A stretch of 64,000 nt of DNA from Acidimicrobiia bacterium (GTDB taxonomy: Bacteria; Actinomycetota; Acidimicrobiia; Spongiisociales; UBA5794). Positions 2,424 through 47,472 of this stretch are shown piece by piece. The notes beneath the pieces were generated by a model. The model was not told where the DNA came from, did no database searches, and worked only from the letters and a program-made list of their open reading frames with translations. Where the stretch lies: the NCBI GenBank assembly GCA_036396535.1, contig DASWKR010000048.1, positions 1-64,000 of the forward strand, written 5' to 3'. A program made the translations under genes and the position numbers. How positions within the stretch are numbered: position 1 is the first letter of the stretch; every line of letters begins with the position of its first letter.

Positions 2424-4304
2424 ATGCCTTCCCAGAGTCGTCGCCTCATAGACGACACCGTTCGCTATCTCTTCGCGCAGGGGACGCTCGCCCGCGGTTT
2501 CGACCACTTCGGCGGTCACCTCGACGAGCACGGTGCTCGATTCGCGGTCTGGGCGCCGCATGCACTCAGCGTGAGCGTCATCGGCGACTGGAACTACTGG
2601 AGCGCCGGGGCCGACCCGCTCGAACCCGTCGACGGGGGGATCTGGACCGGCCGGGTCTCGGGTGTCGTGGAGGGCAACACTTACAAGTACGCCATCCAAG
2701 GCCCGGACGGTGTCGTCCACGAGAGATCAGACCCGTATGCCTTTGCGGCCGAGGTGGCGCCGAAGACGGCATCGGTCCTGTGGAACCTCGACTACGAGTG
2801 GCGCGACCAGACGTGGATGAGCGACCGGGGCGATCGCAACGGCATCTCGTCGCCGATGTCCGTCTACGAGATGCATCTCGGGTCCTGGCGGCGCGGCACG
2901 GACGGGCTCTCGATGTCGTATCGATCGATCGCGGATCCGCTCATCGGCTACCTCACCGACCTCGGATTCACCCACGTCGAGTTCATGCCGCTCACCGAAC
3001 ACCCGTACTTCCCGTCGTGGGGCTACCAGACCACCGGGTACTTCGCGCCGACGTCGCGGTTCGGGACGCCACAGGACCTCATGTACCTGGTCGATCGGCT
3101 CCATCAGGCGGGCATCGGGGTGATCCTCGACTGGGTGCCCTCCCACTTCGCCACGGACGAGCACGGTCTCGGGTGGTTCGACGGCGCCGCCCTGTATGAG
3201 CACCCGGACTGGCGGCGCGGCTGGCACCCGGACTGGAACAGCGCGGTGTTCGACTACGGGAGGCCCGAGGTGATGAGCTTCCTCCTCTCGAGCGCCAACT
3301 TGTGGCTCGACCGCTATCACATCGACGGGATCAGGGTCGACGCGGTGGCGTCGATGCTGTACCTCGATTACTCGAGGGAGCCGGGTGAGTGGCTCCCGAA
3401 CGATCACGGCGGCAACGAGCACCTCGAGGCGATCGAGTTCCTGCGCCGTCTCAACGTCATGGTCTACCGGACCCACCCAGGGACCTTCACCGTCGCCGAG
3501 GAGTCGACGGCGTGGCCCGGCGTCACCCGGCCGCCCGACCACGGCGGGCTCGGATTCGGGTTCAAATGGGACATGGGGTGGATGCACGACACCCTCGATT
3601 ACTTCAGTCGGGATCCGCTCTACCGGTCGTACCACCAGGATCAGCTCACGTTCCGCATGATCTACGCCAACACCGAGAGCTTCGTGCTCCCGCTCTCCCA
3701 CGACGAGGTGGTCCACGGCAAGGGGTCGATGGCTCGCAAGATGCCCGGTGACGAGTGGCAGCGCTTCGCCAACCTGAGGGCGCTCTACGGGTACATGTTC
3801 GGCATGGTCGGCAAGAAGCTGCTCTTCATGGGCAGCGAGATCGGGCAGTGGTCGGAGTGGGCGCACGACGGTTCGCTCGACTGGGCTGAAGTCACGCCCG
3901 GGTCGCGCCACGAGGGTCTTCAGCGGTGGGTGACCTCGCTCAACGAGGCATACCGGGCCCTTTCTCCCCTCTTCGCAGCCGACGCCCATGCAGAGTCGTT
4001 CCGCTGGATCGACGTCGGAGACGCCGCCCACTCGGTGGTGTCGTTCGAGCGTGACGACCTCGACGGCAACGTCGTCATCGTCGTCGGACACTTCTCGGGC
4101 GGCGACATCTCCGGCTACCGCATCGGTGTGGCAGGCGCCCACCCGTGGCGAGTTCTCCTCAACTCGAACGCCGAGCGATTCGGAGGGGCCGGCACGGGAA
4201 CCGAGGGGGTCGTCCAACCTGACGAGGTCCCGATGCATGGCTACTCCCACTCGATCGAGCTATACCTGCCTGCCCTCTCCGTGATGTATCTCGTGCCGGC
4301 CTGA
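2424..4304 (+). CDS. glgB: 1,4-alpha-glucan (glycogen) branching enzyme
   Basis: GlgB cuts alpha-1,4-glucan and re-attaches the fragment by an alpha-1,6 bond to make branched glycogen in the cytoplasm. The 626-residue protein has an N-terminal CBM48-like domain (residues about 25-130), then a GH13 barrel. Motifs are DWVPSHF, GIRVDAVASMLY (nucleophile Asp306), AEEST (acid/base Glu359) and LSHDEVVHGKG (transition-state Asp). The length matches the shorter GlgB class lacking the extra N1 module. The ATG at 2424 is the best start, although no strong Shine-Dalgarno site is visible; the open frame runs to 519 but upstream sequence is not protein-like. No other glycogen genes adjoin it. Confidence 0.95.
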   Translation: MPSQSRRLIDDTVRYLFAQGTLARGFDHFGGHLDEHGARFAVWAPHALSVSVIGDWNYWSAGADPLEPVDGGIWTGRVSGVVEGNTYKYAIQGPDGVVHERSDPYAFAAEVAPKTASVLWNLDYEWRDQTWMSDRGDRNGISSPMSVYEMHLGSWRRGTDGLSMSYRSIADPLIGYLTDLGFTHVEFMPLTEHPYFPSWGYQTTGYFAPTSRFGTPQDLMYLVDRLHQAGIGVILDWVPSHFATDEHGLGWFDGAALYEHPDWRRGWHPDWNSAVFDYGRPEVMSFLLSSANLWLDRYHIDGIRVDAVASMLYLDYSREPGEWLPNDHGGNEHLEAIEFLRRLNVMVYRTHPGTFTVAEESTAWPGVTRPPDHGGLGFGFKWDMGWMHDTLDYFSRDPLYRSYHQDQLTFRMIYANTESFVLPLSHDEVVHGKGSMARKMPGDEWQRFANLRALYGYMFGMVGKKLLFMGSEIGQWSEWAHDGSLDWAEVTPGSRHEGLQRWVTSLNEAYRALSPLFAADAHAESFRWIDVGDAAHSVVSFERDDLDGNVVIVVGHFSGGDISGYRIGVAGAHPWRVLLNSNAERFGGAGTGTEGVVQPDEVPMHGYSHSIELYLPALSVMYLVPA

Positions 4305-21505: not shown

Positions 21506-22422
21506 TCGAGTCGAGGATCGATCCGCCGCGACGACTTGTCGAGATCACCCTCGATGGTGAGCAGCTGCGTGCTCCGGAGGGCAGCACCATCCTCCAGGCG
21601 CTCCGCTCGGCCGGAAAGCCGCAGCCGACGTTGTGCTACCTCGAGAACCTCACTCCCGTGAACACCTGCCGGGTGTGCGTCGTCGATGTCGCCGGCTCGC
21701 GCACCCTCGTGCCGGCGTGCTCCCGCTCTGTCGAGGATGGCATGCAGATCGCAACGGACACCGACCGCGTGCGGCACAGCCGAAGGATGGTGTACGAGTT
21801 CCTCGCCTCTTCCGTCGACCTGAGCCTCGTCGACGACGCGACGCGAGCATGGATGACCGAATACGACGTCGACCCGGGACGATACGGTCCGGCGGCCGCG
21901 CCTCACGTCACTGCACCGCATGCCGGCCACCACGAGCCGCCGGTCGGCAGCACCGCGGCCACCGTCGCCCAGCCCGTGAAGATCCACGACGACCTCTACA
22001 TCAGGGATTACTCCAAGTGCATCCTCTGCTACAAGTGCGTCGAGGCGTGCGGCGAGGACGCCCAGAACACCTTCGCCATCGAGGTTGCCGGCCGTGGTTT
22101 CGACGCCAGGATCTCCACAGAGTTCGACATCGAGCTGAACGAGTCTTCGTGCGTGTACTGCGGCAACTGCATCGGGGTCTGCCCGACCGGTGCCCTCATG
22201 TTCAAGTCCGAGTTCGACCTGCGGCAGGACGGGACGTGGGACGAGGGCCGCCAGACGATCACCACGACGATCTGCCCGTACTGCGGTGTCGGCTGCAATC
22301 TCGAGCTGCACGTCCAGGACAACGAGATCGTGAAGGTGACCTCGCCGCTCGACCACAGTGTCACGAATGGCCACCTCTGCATCAAGGGCCGCTTCGGTTT
22401 CCAGCACGTCCAGAATCGCTGA
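21502..22422 (+). CDS. FdsA N-terminal half: NuoG-like ferredoxin plus FDH 4Fe-4S domain
   Basis: This 306-residue protein is a chain of Fe-S domains. It has a 2Fe-2S ferredoxin (about 10-95, TLCYLENLTPVNTCRVCVV with a later PACSR), then a two-cluster ferredoxin (about 165-235, CILCYKCVEAC and CVYCGNCIGVC). The last 50 residues (ICPYCGVGCNLELHV and HLCIKGRFGF) are the entry domain of an FDH catalytic chain. That domain normally continues into the polypeptide encoded at 15147-17024. Together the two make 931 residues, the usual size of FdsA. The GTG start overlaps the FdsGB stop as GTGA. Confidence 0.9.
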   Translation: MIESRIDPPRRLVEITLDGEQLRAPEGSTILQALRSAGKPQPTLCYLENLTPVNTCRVCVVDVAGSRTLVPACSRSVEDGMQIATDTDRVRHSRRMVYEFLASSVDLSLVDDATRAWMTEYDVDPGRYGPAAAPHVTAPHAGHHEPPVGSTAATVAQPVKIHDDLYIRDYSKCILCYKCVEACGEDAQNTFAIEVAGRGFDARISTEFDIELNESSCVYCGNCIGVCPTGALMFKSEFDLRQDGTWDEGRQTITTTICPYCGVGCNLELHVQDNEIVKVTSPLDHSVTNGHLCIKGRFGFQHVQNR

Positions 22423-22465
22423 TCGGAGAGCCGGGAACGAACGGCGCCCGTGGGGTGTCTATCGG

Positions 22466-22954
22466 ATGATGAAGGACCTGGAACAGGCGCCGGTCGCGTC
22501 GCTGCGCACCTTCGACTTCGACGCTTTCTACAAGGCGACTTGGAGCGACGTGTATCGAGCCTTGTGGGTCACGTTCCGCGACAGCGATCTGGCGCAAGAG
22601 GCGACCGACGAGGCGATGACGAGGGCCTATCAGCACTGGAGCAGGGTCCGCTCATACAGGAATCCGGCGGGGTGGGTGTACCGCGTTGGTGCGAATTGGG
22701 CACACAACCGGCTGAGGAGGAGACGGCTGGAGCGCGACCGGCGCGAACCGGCGCCCACCGCTCGCCCTCCCGAGCCGTCCGGTGTCGCCGAAGCGGTCAG
22801 GAGGCTCCCACTACCTCAGCGTCAGGTGGTGGTGATGCGCCTCCTCCTCGATTGGTCGGAGCTCGATACTGCTGAAGCGCTCGACATCAAGCCGGGAACG
22901 GTGAAGAGCCGCTTGAGCCGCGCCGTGGCACGACTGAGAGAGGAGTTGGAATGA
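22466..22954 (+). CDS. ECF sigma factor (SigE-family-like)
   Basis: This 162-residue sigma factor has region 2 (about 15-75, DAFYKATWSDVYRALWVTF and LAQEATDEAMTRAYQHW) and region 4 (about 105-160, LPLPQRQVVVMRLLLDWS and ALDIKPGTVKSRLSR). Two adjacent ATGs (22466, 22469) are possible. It overlaps the following gene by ATGA, a typical sigma/anti-sigma arrangement. It lies between the Fds genes and fdhD, so it may control part of this region; that is an inference. Confidence 0.9.
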   Translation: MMKDLEQAPVASLRTFDFDAFYKATWSDVYRALWVTFRDSDLAQEATDEAMTRAYQHWSRVRSYRNPAGWVYRVGANWAHNRLRRRRLERDRREPAPTARPPEPSGVAEAVRRLPLPQRQVVVMRLLLDWSELDTAEALDIKPGTVKSRLSRAVARLREELE

Positions 22955-24015
22955 TCACCGAGCAGGAGATCCGAGTGGAGCTCGAGCTCGACGCCGCGGG
23001 AGCACCGCTGAATGCAGGAGATCTCGAGGCCGTCGTGCGGCGCGGGCGCCGGCGCCGGTTCGTCAGGAGGGGCGCCGCGGTGGCGGCGATGTCGATCGCA
23101 ACCGCGGTGGTGGCCCTGACTGCGATCGCATTCGTCACGCCCGACCGCGCGGCCGCGCCGCCGCCGTCCGATGATGGCGCCTACTTTCCGATCCCGCGAT
23201 GGCTACCGCCTGGCGCTCAGGCGGAGGGACACATGTCGACTCCTGATTCCCCAGGGCGATCGACCGTACACGCCGCCCTTGCAGCGGTGACCGGCGGCTC
23301 GATCAGCCGCGCGGTCACATTGACGGTTTGGCTCGCGTCAGCCGATGAGAAACTGCCTCCCGGCGTCGACGTCCCGGTGCGGACCGGGTCGACTGTCGAT
23401 GATCAGGTGCGAATCGTGCGGATCGCTGACTTCAGCGAGGTCGACCCGTCATACGGAGGAGCCGTCGTCGAATGGATCGAGAGCGGCCGGCGCGTGAGCG
23501 TCGTCTCGGCCGAAGGGGACGTCGAAGCGACACTTGCAGTCGCGCGCCGCGTGACCATCGACTCATCGGGCGAGCTGACCGCGGCGGCGGTCGGGCTGGA
23601 TGTGACATCGTCTGACCTCGATCTCCTCGTGGCGCCGCTCGTGACCTCCTCGAGACCGATGCCGTACGTACTCGTTACGTTCGACGGGGATCCCTCGCCA
23701 CACGTCTCGATCGAGGTCTCGCAGGAGCCGGCCGGCACCATTGCCGCCTCGGCAGGAAGCGCAGGGCGGACCGTCGTGCGCGGCCTCGATGCCTACATCG
23801 TCACAACGCTCGACGCACGCATGATCGTCTTCTCCTTGCCGTCGGGCCGGGCAGTGTCGGTCTCCAGTCATGGCCTCAACAGCGATCAGCTGCTTCCGAT
23901 CGACCAACTCCGTCGCATCGCCGAAGGTCTCGACCTGGTCGACCGCCCCGGGTGGGTGGCGGAGCTCGGCGTCGACGATGCGGGGGTCCTGCCCACCACC
24001 ACGATGTCGCCCTGA
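22951..24015 (+). CDS. Membrane-anchored putative anti-sigma/sensor protein
   Basis: This 354-residue protein has a cytoplasmic N-terminus of about 40 residues ending in an Arg-rich stretch (VVRRGRRRRFVRRG), one membrane helix (about 42-64) and an external domain of about 290 residues that I do not recognise. Being translationally coupled to the sigma gene suggests an anti-sigma role. No HxxxCxxC zinc motif is present, so it is not a ZAS-type anti-sigma factor. Confidence 0.7.
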   Translation: MITEQEIRVELELDAAGAPLNAGDLEAVVRRGRRRRFVRRGAAVAAMSIATAVVALTAIAFVTPDRAAAPPPSDDGAYFPIPRWLPPGAQAEGHMSTPDSPGRSTVHAALAAVTGGSISRAVTLTVWLASADEKLPPGVDVPVRTGSTVDDQVRIVRIADFSEVDPSYGGAVVEWIESGRRVSVVSAEGDVEATLAVARRVTIDSSGELTAAAVGLDVTSSDLDLLVAPLVTSSRPMPYVLVTFDGDPSPHVSIEVSQEPAGTIAASAGSAGRTVVRGLDAYIVTTLDARMIVFSLPSGRAVSVSSHGLNSDQLLPIDQLRRIAEGLDLVDRPGWVAELGVDDAGVLPTTTMSP

Positions 24016-41208: not shown

Positions 41209-41910
41209 TCAGGCGGTGTCGATGGTCCGCAGCTCGTCCCACGATCCTGCCGGGAAGGGCGTCTTCGTCCTGGCGTCGAGCCTGGCGGCGTACGCCGCGG
41301 CCTCAGATCTGCGTGACATGCCCATCTTGGCGAGCATGTTCGAGACGTAGTTCTTGACCGTCTTCTCGGCCAGGAACAGATCCTCTCCGATCTCACGATT
41401 GGTCTTGCCCTGCTCGATGAGCCGCAGGACTCTGCGTTCCTGGGCGCTGAGGCGGCCGATGATCGGGTCGTCGCCGTCCAGGCCGACGTCGGCGATCACG
41501 GAGAGAGACGGATCGATGAGCGACTCGCCCCGACCCGCCTTGCGCACGCCCTCGACGAGCTCGCGAGACCGGATCCGCTTCAACAGGTAGCCGGAGGCGC
41601 CCGCGGCAACGGCCCGCTGCAACGCGTCACTGTCAGCGAACGAGCTGAGCATCACGACGACGATGCCGGGCCACCTGGACTTGATCTCACGGCAGGCGTC
41701 GACGCCGGAGCCGTCCGGGAGTTGCACGTCCATCACGACGAGGTCCGGCTCGTCGAGGCCGGCGCGCCGCACCGCCTCCTCGACCGAGGCAGCCTCGGAA
41801 ACGACCTCGAGGTCGCTCTCCGCCTCGAGGAGGGCCCTCAAGCCCTCGCGGACGACGGAGTGGTCGTCGACGAGAAGGATGCGTAGGTGATCGGAAGGCA
41901 TGTCACCCAT
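41209..41910 (-). CDS. NarL/LuxR-type response regulator
   Basis: This 233-residue regulator has a receiver domain (acidic pair VDDH, phospho-acceptor Asp61 in VVMDVQLPDGSG, Lys in LLKRI) and a LuxR HTH (about 155-215, LSAQERRVLRLIEQGKTNREIGE). It is divergent from the histidine kinase gene, and the pair forms a two-component system. TACCGT 6 nt upstream favours the ATG at 41910; the ATG at 41901 is possible. Confidence 0.93.
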   Translation of the reverse strand: MGDMPSDHLRILLVDDHSVVREGLRALLEAESDLEVVSEAASVEEAVRRAGLDEPDLVVMDVQLPDGSGVDACREIKSRWPGIVVVMLSSFADSDALQRAVAAGASGYLLKRIRSRELVEGVRKAGRGESLIDPSLSVIADVGLDGDDPIIGRLSAQERRVLRLIEQGKTNREIGEDLFLAEKTVKNYVSNMLAKMGMSRRSEAAAYAARLDARTKTPFPAGSWDELRTIDTA

Positions 41911-41999
41911 GTCAGCACGGTAGGCGATTCGATGCCAGGGGCTTTCGGCCCGCTGGGTGAACGGGCGAATCTGGTGCGCCGCGACGTACGATTGCCGGT
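41911..41999. promoter_or_regulatory. Divergent promoter region of the two-component pair
   Basis: Two -10 boxes face away from each other: TACCGT (41917-41922, minus strand) 6 nt from the regulator ATG, and TACGAT (41987-41992, plus strand) 7 nt from the kinase ATG. Both genes thus appear leaderless and share 89 bp of control region. Confidence 0.5.
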
Positions 42000-42995
42000 A
42001 TGCCAGCACCCACGACGGTCCTCGATGCCGTGCCGGACGCCGTCCTCGTCGTCGAGGAGGATGGGACGATCTCGTACGCCAACGACAGCGCCTCTGCGTT
42101 GTTTCGGGCGCCCACCAGCCAGATCATGTCGATGACGGTCGAAGACCTCATGCCGAGCCACCTACGGTCGGTCCATCGCAGCCATCGAGCCGGCTATGCG
42201 GCGGCGCCGACTCGACGCCAGATGGGCAGCGGTCTCGAGCTCGTCGCCACGAGAGTCGACGGGTCAACGGTCCCGGTCGACATCGCGCTGAGCCCCGTCG
42301 AGCTCGAAGGCAGGCGATGCACGATCGCATCGATCAGGGACGTCACGATGCGGAGGCAATCAGAGGCCGAGCTCGCAAGTGCCAGGGAGCGGCTCGCCAT
42401 CCTCGACGACAGAGAACGGATTGCTCGCGATCTGCACGATTCGATCATCCAGGAGCTGTTCGCAGCCGGGCTCGGCTTACAGACGATCATCGGGCGCGTC
42501 GACGACCCGGACGTCGTAGCCAGGATCGAGACGAGCATCGATCGGCTCGAGGCGACGATCACTCGCCTCCGCAATGTGATCTTCGACCTCCGCAGACCTA
42601 TCGAGGCCGGTCATCTGGGATCGGCGCTCGAGGAGGTCCTGCGTTCGGCGGCGATCGAGCTCGGGTTCGACGCCAAGCTCGACGTCGAAGGCGACCTCGA
42701 CGCAGTGCCGCCCCGCGTCCGGGAACACCTCGTCCCGACGGTCCGCGAGGCCGTGATGAACGTTGCCAAACACGCCGATGCATCTCGTATCACGGTTGCG
42801 ATCGACGTCGGTGCAGAACTCACCTTGACCGTCCTCGACGATGGTCGCGGCCTCGTGCCGGCGGCCGGATCCGGGTTCGGGCTCGCCAACATGCGCGACA
42901 GGGCGCGGACGCTCGGTGGGACCTTCACGATCGAGGATCGTGACGGCGGAGGCACCGCGGTGGTGTGGAGCGTGCCTCTCATCCACGGCGGATGA
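42000..42995 (+). CDS. PAS-domain sensor histidine kinase (NarL-partner type)
   Basis: This 331-residue kinase has a PAS domain (about 5-115), a HisKA_3 dimerisation domain with phospho-acceptor His146 (RERIARDLHDSIIQELF) and a HATPase domain (about 225-328, REAVMNVAKHADASRI and VLDDGRGLVP). It has no membrane helix, so it senses a cytoplasmic signal; no haem- or flavin-binding residue can be assigned from sequence alone. Its partner is the divergent regulator. Confidence 0.93.
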   Translation: MPAPTTVLDAVPDAVLVVEEDGTISYANDSASALFRAPTSQIMSMTVEDLMPSHLRSVHRSHRAGYAAAPTRRQMGSGLELVATRVDGSTVPVDIALSPVELEGRRCTIASIRDVTMRRQSEAELASARERLAILDDRERIARDLHDSIIQELFAAGLGLQTIIGRVDDPDVVARIETSIDRLEATITRLRNVIFDLRRPIEAGHLGSALEEVLRSAAIELGFDAKLDVEGDLDAVPPRVREHLVPTVREAVMNVAKHADASRITVAIDVGAELTLTVLDDGRGLVPAAGSGFGLANMRDRARTLGGTFTIEDRDGGGTAVVWSVPLIHGG

Positions 42996-43508: not shown

Positions 43509-43686
43509 CCTCGGCCCGAAGGCTCAACCCAACGCAGCTCACATGGAAGGCGCGTCGCGCCTGGTGCGCCGGGCCGCCACGGAATGAGTGCAGTGCGGGC
43601 CATTTCTGCCGATCGTAACCCCGTGGGTCTTGGTGGCCACGCCCCTGGTTCTGAGGTGAACGATCGTGCTGAAGGAGACGGTTCAG

Positions 43687-46600
43687 ATGCCGGTTCAGGC
43701 GTCGCGGTCGGACACGTTCCGATCGGTCTACAACCGCGCCATGCCCCGGGTCTACTCGTATCTCCATCATCGGGTCGGAGCGGATGAGACGAGAGCCCTC
43801 GAGCTCACGCGGGCCACGTTCGTAGCCCTGGCGGATGAGTGGCCCCTCGCGGAGGCGGTCGCGCCCGTCGAGCACATTCTCGCCCTCGCTCGCCGCCAGT
43901 TCGTCGTGTCCGAGCTGAAGCAAGGGCACCGGCGGCTCCGCGCCGGAAAGGGCGCCGTCCGCACCGATGGCGATGTCGACACGCTCGGCGAGGACACCAT
44001 GCAGCACTCGCTGTGCTCGCTCGACCCGGCCGAGCGGGTCGTGGTCGTGCTCCGCCACGGCGACGGCAGGAGCGCGGCAGCGGTGGCAGGGGACCTGGCG
44101 AAGCCGGAGGCGTGGGTAACCGCCAGGCACGCGGCGGGCATCGCCAAGCTCGCGGCTGCTCAGGGCGCTCGTGAAGACAGGGTGATTCGCCGCCTCGCCG
44201 AGCTCGACCGGCCGGTCATCGTTCCGGAGGGGGCTTCCAGCCAGGTCTACCGGGACGCCTCGGACCTCGTGGCGACGAGAGAGGGAAGGGTGCGCGCCGA
44301 CCTCTTCGACGAGATCGCCGGATTCAGCCCCGTTGAGGCTGCCGAGATACCCCGCTGGCGCCCCGTGGTCGCCCTCCTCTGGCTTGGCGTGATGGCGGCC
44401 GCCGTGCTGACGACGGTGTTCGTGCTGCGCACCGAGGAGTCACCCTCTGAGGAGACCAGTGCCTCGGTTGCCGCTCCGACGACCACGGCAGCGCCCGCGG
44501 CGTTGCTCGAGGCAACTCCTCCTCCGCCCCGCCAGACCGCAGACCTGCCTGTGGGGCCGCCCGGGTGGGTGGCGCTCGATCCCGGGCCGCTCGGACGCTC
44601 CGTCGCGCCGAGCGCCAGCGTGGCGACGGATCGCGACCTCTTCGTCTGGGGCCCGGACGGGATCGCCTCGTACAGCCCGACCACGGCAGCGTGGCAGACC
44701 GTCGATTCGCCCCCTGTGACGTGGGGGGAGCAGGCGCGGCTCGTCTGGATCGGCGACGGTCTCGTCGCCGTGGCTCCCGGCGCGGTCCCGGCGACACTCA
44801 ACTCCCAAGGAGTCTGGGTCTCGTCGTGGCAGGACGCTGCTCCGCTCGACTCGTTGGTCGACGCCGTGTGGACCGGCACCGAGCTCATCACGGTCGGCAC
44901 CAGGCTCGGGACGCCCGCGGCGGTCGCCTACTCGCCCGCTGCAGAGACGTGGCGCGAGCTCTCGCCTCCTCCCTCCGCCCCCGAGCGCGCCGATCTCTCC
45001 TGGACCGGCAGCCATGTGATGCTTCTCGGGGCATCGGCGGGCGGCGAAGGCCTGGCCGTAGGCCTGGTGTACAGCCCGGACTCGGATGAGTGGCGTGAGA
45101 TGCCTCCCGCCTCGATTCGCGGCGAAGGCGTCGTGTCGGGCTGGGTGGCGGGCAGGCTCGTCGCCGTCGACGCAGCTCGTGCCGCCGCCTCGTTCACCGT
45201 CGAGTCCGGGTGGATCCAGCTCGATCCAGTCCCTCTCGCGACCGACGGATGCATGCCGAGCACCGATGTCGCCGGCATCGCCCTCGTCGCTTGGTTCTGC
45301 GGCGAGGCCGCCGTCTTCGACTCAACGCAGCTCCGATGGACGCGCATCGCCACGCCGGTCGACCAGGACGGCGTCGCCGCGGTTGGCGACCGGCCGACGG
45401 CCCTGGGCAACGTCGTGTACTTCTGGGGGACCGGGCCCGACGGCTCGTCGTTCTGGTCTTTGCTGCCCGGCGAAGCCATCCCGGGCGGGTCGGAGACTGG
45501 AGTCGACGGCTGGTCGGTTCTCCCTCCGTCCCAGATCGACGCCCGCGCCGCTCAGGTGCACTCCCTTGGAGGCGGCGACCTGCTGGCGTGGTCGCCGGGC
45601 GCCGATGTGCCGGTGACCCGCTATTCCACCGAGCGCGACGAGTGGGATGCGCTCCCGGCCCCGCCGGGCGCGGCTGCCGGACGGCACGCCGTGTGGACCG
45701 GGTCGGAGTTGATCGTCTGGGGGGGTACCAGGGCACTCGGCGCGGCCGCCCTCGATGGAGCCGTCCTCGACCCGCAAGCCGGGCTGTGGCGTCCGACGAC
45801 GCAAGCGCCTCCTGCGGTCGGGTACGCGGCACACGCCGTGTGGGCGGGCGCCGAGATGATCGTGTGGGGTGCTGGCGCGGCAGCTTTCGATCCTGCCGCG
45901 GGAGAGTGGCGGAGCTTGCCGGAGCCGCCGCTCTCCGGCGACGCGGCTCTCGTGTGGTCCGGTTCCGAGCTCCTCGGCTTCGGTCGGGACGTCGCCGGCA
46001 CGTCGACCGTCGCCGCCTACGACCCGTCGGTCGAGTCGTGGCGGTCGGCCGAGCTGCCGGATGACGTCGCCGACCCTGTGGTCGTGTGGACGGGGCACGA
46101 GGCCCTGGTCCTGTGGGCCGGGGCCCTCGAGCAGGACGCCATGCTGCTGGCGGCCTACGTCCCGGCAACGGGGGAGTGGAGGCGGATGGCCGCAGCTCCC
46201 TTCTCGGCGGTTCCACAGGCGGCGGTCACCTGGACGGGGAGCCGGCTCGCAGCCTGGGACGGAGACAGCCGCGACCCTGTCGTGTGGCTGTACAACCCGC
46301 TCTCGGATGAGTGGTCGACGACGGCCGTCGCCCCATACGGTGCCGAGGCAGGGGCCATCGCTTGGGCCGAGGATCGCATCGTCGTGACAGGGGCCGATCG
46401 TGTGATGTCGTTCGAGCTTGGAACGAACGGCGCCACCCTCCCGCGGCTCCCCGGCTTCGAGGTCCCGCTCGAGATCGGCGAGTCGATCCCGCTCACGCTG
46501 TTCGCCTTCGATCCGACGTCTGACGAGGGAGGCATTGCAGCGGTGGTCGACCTGCATCGCGGCGTCAGGGTCGAGTACACGCCGGGCGAGCACCATGTCA

Positions 46601-47472
46601 TCCCTCCGGATCGCGCCTCGTTGCTGCCATCCGGGTCATTCGTGACAGCACGTGGCGGCGTTCTCGCCGCCTACGACGCCGCCCTCTACAGAGCCCCACG
46701 TGTGGTGTGGGAAACCGAAGGCAAGCCGGATCTCGTCGTCTTCGGGACGGCCGACGAGGAGGGAGAAGAGGCCGTGTGGCTGTTCGAGGGGGCGCGCTCG
46801 TCAGGAGCCCGTCGCACCGCCAACCTGCGTCTCGTGCGGGTGTCGGACGGCGAGGTGGAGCTGAATGCAGACATGGCGCAGAACACCACTCCCGTCCAGG
46901 CGACGCCCCAAGGGCTGCTCGTGAACTTCGTCGACTACCTGGACACTGCGAACGGCCGGGTACCCGACCCGGAAACGGCGGAGATGGGACTCGTGGAGCC
47001 AGGCGGCCGCGTGCTCCCGCTCGGCGACGGGATCGGTCTGGCGATGGCGGGAGAGACGATCGTCAGGCTCCTCTGTCCCGGACTCGTCGAGCTCGACTGC
47101 ACGCTGCGCCTGACGGTGCCTGGTGGCTCCAACGACGCCGTCGCAGAGCCGGGAGGGGCGCACTGGGTGCCTCACACGCAGCCCGGCGCCTCATTGGCGT
47201 CGCCCGACGGGCGCTGGGCGATCGCCGCCGCAGTCAGGGTCAACGACATCGATCGGATCCCGGTGCCGGTCCTCGTCGAGGTCGGCAGGGCATCGGCAGA
47301 GATCCTGCCCTTCGGAACGCTCCACGACGGCGTGTCCGTCGCGTGGTCGGCCGACAGCCGCTGGCTCGTGACCCTCGGCGCCGAACCGATGGCGTTCAAC
47401 GTGACCCAGGGCCGCTGGGTGTCGCTCGCCGGAGTCGTTCCGGAGGGATTGGTCGTCTATGCGGCTGGCTGA
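43687..47472 (+). CDS. ECF-sigma-like domain fused through one membrane helix to a Kelch-like propeller ectodomain
   Basis: This is a 1261-residue protein. Residues 8-60 look like sigma region 2 (FRSVYNRAMPRVYSYLHHRV) and 108-158 like region 4 (LDPAERVVVVLRHGDGRSAAAVAG, AWVTARHAAGIAKLA), although the recognition helix is poorly kept. After a linker, one membrane helix (about 226-248) is followed by a Thr/Ala/Pro-rich stalk and about 1000 residues of repeated Kelch-type blades (AVWTGSELIVWGG, YDPSVESWRSAELP, AVTWTGSRLAAWDGD). Topology would place the sigma-like part inside and the propellers outside. The ATG at 43687 has AAGGAG 9 nt upstream. Function is unknown; a membrane-tethered regulator is an inference. 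Confidence 0.85.
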   Translation: MPVQASRSDTFRSVYNRAMPRVYSYLHHRVGADETRALELTRATFVALADEWPLAEAVAPVEHILALARRQFVVSELKQGHRRLRAGKGAVRTDGDVDTLGEDTMQHSLCSLDPAERVVVVLRHGDGRSAAAVAGDLAKPEAWVTARHAAGIAKLAAAQGAREDRVIRRLAELDRPVIVPEGASSQVYRDASDLVATREGRVRADLFDEIAGFSPVEAAEIPRWRPVVALLWLGVMAAAVLTTVFVLRTEESPSEETSASVAAPTTTAAPAALLEATPPPPRQTADLPVGPPGWVALDPGPLGRSVAPSASVATDRDLFVWGPDGIASYSPTTAAWQTVDSPPVTWGEQARLVWIGDGLVAVAPGAVPATLNSQGVWVSSWQDAAPLDSLVDAVWTGTELITVGTRLGTPAAVAYSPAAETWRELSPPPSAPERADLSWTGSHVMLLGASAGGEGLAVGLVYSPDSDEWREMPPASIRGEGVVSGWVAGRLVAVDAARAAASFTVESGWIQLDPVPLATDGCMPSTDVAGIALVAWFCGEAAVFDSTQLRWTRIATPVDQDGVAAVGDRPTALGNVVYFWGTGPDGSSFWSLLPGEAIPGGSETGVDGWSVLPPSQIDARAAQVHSLGGGDLLAWSPGADVPVTRYSTERDEWDALPAPPGAAAGRHAVWTGSELIVWGGTRALGAAALDGAVLDPQAGLWRPTTQAPPAVGYAAHAVWAGAEMIVWGAGAAAFDPAAGEWRSLPEPPLSGDAALVWSGSELLGFGRDVAGTSTVAAYDPSVESWRSAELPDDVADPVVVWTGHEALVLWAGALEQDAMLLAAYVPATGEWRRMAAAPFSAVPQAAVTWTGSRLAAWDGDSRDPVVWLYNPLSDEWSTTAVAPYGAEAGAIAWAEDRIVVTGADRVMSFELGTNGATLPRLPGFEVPLEIGESIPLTLFAFDPTSDEGGIAAVVDLHRGVRVEYTPGEHHVIPPDRASLLPSGSFVTARGGVLAAYDAALYRAPRVVWETEGKPDLVVFGTADEEGEEAVWLFEGARSSGARRTANLRLVRVSDGEVELNADMAQNTTPVQATPQGLLVNFVDYLDTANGRVPDPETAEMGLVEPGGRVLPLGDGIGLAMAGETIVRLLCPGLVELDCTLRLTVPGGSNDAVAEPGGAHWVPHTQPGASLASPDGRWAIAAAVRVNDIDRIPVPVLVEVGRASAEILPFGTLHDGVSVAWSADSRWLVTLGAEPMAFNVTQGRWVSLAGVVPEGLVVYAAG

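Follow-up and report, generated by a model that had tools for sequence, protein, structure and literature searches.

What becomes of a sigma factor once it is tied, in a single polypeptide, to a membrane-bound sensor? The question is raised by the gene at 43687–47472 of a 64,000-nucleotide stretch of DNA from a soil-type Acidimicrobiia bacterium (here called the window; positions 1 to 64,000 of contig DASWKR010000048.1, assembly GCA_036396535.1), the product of which combines an N-terminal part related to extracytoplasmic function (ECF) sigma factors, one membrane helix and a Kelch-type ectodomain. We consider it rather probable that this protein is a membrane receptor born from the fusion of an ECF sigma gene with the overlapping gene of its membrane partner, and that its sigma domain is now a pseudo-sigma. 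Fusions of sigma and anti-sigma factors are already known; the transition from a pair of genes to a single one can seldom be observed. In the present case, two species of one genus have the syntenic locus as separate genes and two others have it merged, and damage to the same polymerase contact recurs in the fused forms of two genera. Together, the split and fused forms constitute a natural test of the fate of a sigma factor tied to its partner, as activator, mimic or anchor.

Sigma domain, membrane helix and Kelch ectodomain

The homology of residues 1–166 to separately encoded (“split”) sigma factors is confirmed, and both the sigma2 and the sigma4 domain are present. The family model TIGR02983 (SigE-fam_strep) matches residues 6–159 with E = 1.1e-8; the score of 35.2 bits lies below the curated cut-off of 141.55, as do the scores of intact members encoded in the same genome. 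A profile built from 13 split sigma relatives, with the window protein left out, was run on a 2,003-sequence test set and gave 71.7 bits (E = 6.5e-21) for residues 1–166; the 1,980 shuffles that were scored reached 11.0 bits at most. Most of this signal is supplied by sigma2 (55.4 bits alone), sigma4 being weak on its own (15.5 bits). In the AlphaFold2 model of residues 1–255, the helices of both domains mostly exceed 90 in the predicted local distance difference test (pLDDT; sigma2 mostly 90–97, sigma4 mostly 92–98), with an unsure relative orientation of the two (predicted template-modelling score 0.42). Each of the 25 best PDB matches that Foldseek gave for this model is an ECF sigma factor, in complex with polymerase or an anti-sigma factor, and the template-modelling score to sigma4 chains is about 0.8.

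The reading frame is uninterrupted. Its ATG is preferred to an in-frame GTG at 43666 because of the AAGGAG preceding it, and the codon-position content of guanine and cytosine is coding-like from end to end, the N-terminal part included, which is therefore not a read-through artefact. A basic RWRP precedes the membrane helix and places the N-terminus inside by the positive-inside rule. The ectodomain is matched by Kelch and related propeller models, and its structural matches are mostly multi-propeller proteins. The original prediction, made from the sequence alone, had placed ECF-like regions 2 and 4, a single membrane helix and Kelch-type blades in one chain, joining sensor and sigma. This outline holds throughout, in the order sigma, helix, Kelch within one open frame, and the profile similarity of residues 1–160 to sigma factors, on which it hinged, was found. 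The structure prediction that had been advised for the propellers yielded an all-beta ectodomain, but at low confidence (mean pLDDT 58), a model too poor for the propellers to be counted.

From overlapping genes to one gene

Two further proteins have the same domain order, the existence of such orthologues having been one of the checks put forward with the original prediction. They were the only ones found besides the window protein in a search of relatives and a GTDB scan, which used strict seed patterns and is thus not exhaustive; both belong to uncultured Acidimicrobiaceae genomes (G011 and G101) of one sister genus. A scan of 395 genomes of the class gave no other confirmed fusion among the long-frame matches that were opened. 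Sigma matches in long open frames at C76, G406 and G744, considered as extra fusions, turned out to be separate sigma genes.

Within the sister genus, G011 and G101 carry the fused form of the syntenic locus and two other species (G099, G100) the split form, with a homoserine-kinase-like gene upstream in a neighbourhood shared with the fused loci. The split locus encodes a sigma factor of 169–170 residues and an 850-residue protein that combines a single membrane helix with Kelch repeats; the ATG of this second gene sits within the final codons of the first. At the split junction (GATGTCTGAGTTC / GATGTCTGAGTTCGAT), a TGA terminates sigma and an ATG starts the partner; the fused junction reads GATGGATTTGAC or GATGGCTTCGAT (pattern GATGG[AC]TT[TC]). 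By the net loss of 4 nt at the junction, the sigma stop was removed and the frames were joined. Fusion of a sigma gene with its overlapping partner gene is thus demonstrated in the sister genus, and through homology the same origin follows for the window gene. The tree does not separate one fusion event from two, because the sigma branch of the window protein, the longest of 16 tree rows (2.97), is too long. The genome to which the window belongs also carries a split pair (contig C22), in which a sigma gene overlaps the gene of an 882-residue membrane-Kelch protein.

That an assembly or sequencing error merged two overlapping genes is extremely improbable. The genome is a draft of 94 contigs, and relatives do have two separate genes; yet the same fusion recurs in two independent genomes, G011 and G101, where the frames are joined exactly, and in the window the frame is open across sigma, linker and membrane helix, with continuous codon-position bias.

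Several side observations concern these loci. On contig C383 of G101 (L102:3200-3950, +), a frameshift near 3235 breaks the Kelch part of the fused gene, the remainder lying in another frame, and both a real loss and an assembly error are possible. The sister genus has a conserved GATAGGGT, resembling an ordinary -10 element, upstream of split and fused genes alike, where GGATAGGGT[TC]TG (AGATAGGGTTTG in L101) is conserved about 25–40 nt 5' of the genes (L022, L100, L101, L102); no obvious copy of GATAGGGT was found upstream of the window gene. Within the window, a sigma gene at 22358–22954 overlaps the gene of a one-helix membrane protein (22951–24015, +) by 4 nt, and about a dozen pairs of sigma factor and one-helix partner are encoded in the genome.

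Across the phylum, the sigma genes of the nearest relatives overlap a partner gene by 4 to 14 bases in nearly all cases read. The comparison reveals a short motif common to these partners, the first 40 residues of which share the pattern DPf..L...d.PV.P...F...L...L (also DPf..L...d.PV.P...F...LR.RL); among the partners scanned, it is covered by no Pfam or NCBIfam model. What follows varies: several partners have one membrane helix, continuing with Kelch blades in some and with thioredoxin-like or other domains elsewhere, and others are soluble with glyoxalase-like domains. We infer that the DPf..L pattern may be the sigma-binding part. In the fused proteins G011 and G101, it is clear (about 1e-12). 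Literature searches for Kelch or beta-propeller anti-sigma factors returned nothing relevant. Separately, in an operon widespread in Actinomycetota, a sigma gene overlaps with a glyoxalase-like (VOC) gene (L141, L142, L143, L144, L145, L147, L167, L168, L169, L171, L172), the product of which reads DPf..L..P..P...F...LR.RL in its first 40 residues, without a Pfam or NCBIfam match among the partners scanned.

Fate of the sigma domain

The acidic motif of sigma2.2 (DAED-type) is described as a contact to the beta' subunit that is essential to holoenzyme formation (PMC8103513). In the 13 split sigmas, region 2.2 reads AED or AEE (VED in one) followed by [LV][TS][QSA]E, with the signature AED.T[QSA]E.F, versus RALELTRATF in the window protein, RAEAATREAF in G011 and RAARAAREAF in G101. 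The acidic motif is replaced by RALE, RAEA and RAAR, respectively, and the Gln, Ser or Ala before the Glu has become Arg in all three. In the window protein, the recognition helix of region 4.2, rightly described as degenerate in the original prediction, is lost (PEAWVTARHAAGIAKL vs ATE[SAV]LL.R[AG]..A[FL] in split relatives), as are the Asp and aromatic residues of regions 2.3/2.4. The split set has 23 conserved polar positions, of which 7 are kept in the window protein, 14 each in G011 and G101, and 18–23 in the split sigmas; of the 30 conserved hydrophobic ones, the window protein keeps 21 (p = 1.8e-6), the sister fusions keep 27 and the split sigmas 27–30. The fused sigma domains appear to have kept their fold and let their contacts go, the window protein being the extreme case.

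Given that all three fused proteins show a damaged sigma2.2 contact, and that the window protein has lost the recognition helix but kept the core, the latter is probably a pseudo-sigma on a receptor, with a logic nearer to the sigma mimicry of PhyR than to a sigma factor released by cleavage. The ancestral partner would have been a putative anti-sigma factor in which a short motif on the sigma side preceded a single membrane helix and a Kelch beta-propeller sensor outside. After the fusion, the sigma fold would have been retained while the contacts to RNA polymerase and promoter were lost, so that the cytoplasmic pseudo-sigma would no longer bind polymerase and initiate transcription; the residues concerned argue for such a loss of sigma activity. 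Any signalling by the pseudo-sigma may proceed through protein contact, such as the capture of the anti-sigma factor of a working sigma, once a ligand binds to the propellers.

The pattern of substitutions is consistent with relaxed contacts. G011 and G101 differ at 13 of 38 columns conserved in the other split sigmas vs 42 of 129 elsewhere, and the split sister pair, which is constrained, differs at 4 of 38 vs 43 of 131 (p = 0.004). Several points weigh against a pseudo-sigma. The conserved-column test relies on small counts; between G011 and G101, the ratio of nonsynonymous to synonymous substitution rates (dN/dS) is about 0.25 in the sigma part, equal to that in the rest of the protein; more of region 4 is retained in these two proteins than in the window protein, for which no close relative was available to measure selection; and at the place in its linker that matches the partner motif only LDRPV remains, scoring 1.4 bits with the motif profile, not above shuffles, so that an anti-sigma motif is not claimed there. 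The analysis identified no partner, ligand or regulon. The dN/dS ratio implies that something in the sigma domain of the sister genus is still selected, which fits a mimic, but a working sigma too.

A sigma that still works is one alternative: the propellers would sense a ligand, proteases would cut at the membrane, and the freed sigma would join polymerase at promoters of changed sequence. Such an active tethered sigma has the same overall architecture as ECF48, ECF52, ECF53 and IutY, its sigma2 and sigma4 folds are predicted to be intact, the dN/dS of the sister pair fits it, and the genome encodes a site-2 protease, though such proteases are nearly universal. We nevertheless regard it as unlikely, since none of the three fused proteins has an undamaged acidic motif in region 2.2, the window protein has lost the recognition helix and the region 2.3/2.4 residues, and a motif scan found no HxxxCxxC zinc-finger anti-sigma domain between its sigma part and the membrane. 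For the sister proteins, proteolytic release of a working sigma is possible, more so than for the window protein. Intramembrane cleavage had been suggested in the original prediction as one way to use the domain, a proposal weakened by the damaged contact. Of the two alternatives offered there, a DNA-free signalling or mimic domain is favoured, since damage to the region 2.2 polymerase contact is common to all three fused proteins; a decoy for core polymerase is disfavoured, as the very contact with the core is lost.

At the other extreme, the sigma part may be an inert leftover, an anchor held in frame before the membrane helix of a protein of which only the propellers are used. In favour of this rather unlikely case are the very long sigma branch, the disappearance of the greater part of the conserved polar positions and the lost linker motif; the retention of the hydrophobic core pattern despite about three changes per site, the high confidence of the predicted fold and the purifying selection in the sister pair speak against it.

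If the window protein is a pseudo-sigma, a strict mimic in the sense of PhyR would be a special case: it would capture the anti-sigma factor of a paralogous split system, for example that of the C22 pair, and free its sigma. Degenerate polymerase and promoter contacts on a kept fold are how the sigma-like domain of PhyR is described (PMC8103513), and a paralogous pair of split sigma and membrane-Kelch protein exists in the same genome. However, the sigma4 surface of the window protein has changed as well, and PhyR, a cytoplasmic protein, is controlled by a receiver domain, which the window protein lacks; this special case seems quite unlikely to us. Equally doubtful is a transmembrane sigma mimic in which the sole inside output of a beta-propeller receptor outside would be a dead sigma that captures or releases an anti-sigma factor, a partner switch operating directly across the membrane with neither kinase nor protease. 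More generally, region 2.2 should be checked before a sigma factor that is fused to a membrane sensor is assumed to work.

Known systems and feature coordinates

The original prediction took the membrane-tethered arrangement for a departure from the norm, but sigma factors fused to membrane anti-sigma factors are established in ECF48, ECF52, ECF53 and IutY (PMC8999054). Proteolytic release of a working sigma is the model for ECF52 and IutY (PMC8999054, PMC5826349), proposed for the former (SCO4117) and demonstrated for the latter. As in ECF48, ECF52 and ECF53, the chain of the window protein continues beyond the sigma domain with a membrane helix and then an outside part. The likeness extends in detail to the Streptomyces coelicolor protein SCO4117 (ECF52), like ECF48 and ECF53 an actinobacterial ECF sigma to which a membrane segment and an extensive outside part are fused, and with a Pro-rich stalk after the membrane helix as in the window protein. 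ECF52, however, combines a zinc-finger anti-sigma domain with a carbohydrate-binding one, whereas the window protein has Kelch blades and damaged sigma contacts; it contains no such zinc finger, and no model of a carbohydrate-binding module matches its ectodomain. It is therefore not a member of ECF52 but a distinct variant of the known fused kind. IutY of Pseudomonas putida (ECF243) likewise unites sigma and membrane anti-sigma in one chain, but is cleaved and active in the cell-surface signalling of iron uptake, a context that the window protein lacks, its sigma being degenerate.

The sigma-like domain of PhyR, from the alphaproteobacterial general stress response, likewise has an ECF fold in which the regions for promoter and polymerase have degenerated. 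As a response regulator, however, PhyR is soluble, in contrast to the membrane receptor of the window, in which a domain-model scan found no C-terminal receiver domain (Response_reg). In EcfP/ECF43, the polymerase-contacting acidic sigma2 motif is replaced too, but by a Ser/Thr-containing one that a kinase phosphorylates; RALE contains neither residue, and an EcfP-like phosphorylation switch was rejected on this ground. ECF57 of another lineage carries WD40 extensions, beta-propeller type repeats described as possible protein-interaction parts; the parallel with the window protein is the joining of a repeat of this type to a sigma factor.

A second fused sigma of the same genome forms a contrast to the window protein. 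Encoded on contig C42 (L051:1934-4984, -), it has 1017 residues, with an intact sigma motif (DVAQDTF) and, at residue 229, an HxxxCxxC zinc finger, besides a membrane helix and an Ig/cadherin-like (Big_9/cadherin-like) ectodomain, and it resembles a fusion of the ECF48/52/53 type with an adhesin-like outside part.

Table 1. Features of the fused gene and its product, in window coordinates.
Feature	Position	Strand	Residues	Basis or remark
RBS-like (ribosome-binding site) AAGGAG	43670..43675	+		11 nt 5' of ATG at 43687; read in sequence
Fused gene: candidate pseudo-sigma, linker, one membrane helix, Kelch/beta-propeller ectodomain	43687..47472	+	1261 aa
Sigma2-like domain, three helices	43705..43947	+	7-87	Profile score, AlphaFold2, Foldseek
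Region 2.2 equivalent RALELTRATF	43792..43821	+	36-45	Acidic signature damaged vs split relatives
Sigma4-like domain	43984..44184	+	100-166	pLDDT mostly 92-98, Foldseek; weak sequence score
Degenerate recognition helix PEAWVTARHAAGIAKL	44104..44151	+	140-155	Comparison with split relatives
Linker RRLAELDRPVIVPEGASSQVY	44188..44250	+	168-188	Place of partner motif, vestigial here
Membrane helix	44365..44421	+	227-245	Sequence prediction and AlphaFold2 model
Pro/Thr/Ala-rich stalk	44428..44562	+	248-292	Read in sequence
First Kelch cluster	44569..45366	+	~295-560	Kelch models, motif scan, low-confidence structure model
Second Kelch cluster, about six blades	45514..46431	+	610-915	PF24681 at 643-787, motif scan, DNA repeats
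C-terminal all-beta part, perhaps third propeller	46474..47469	+	930-1261	Low-confidence model; conserved in G011

Elsewhere in the window, the divergent genes of a LuxR-type response regulator (41209–42009, -) and a PAS histidine kinase (42000–42995, +) overlap by ten bases in their start regions.

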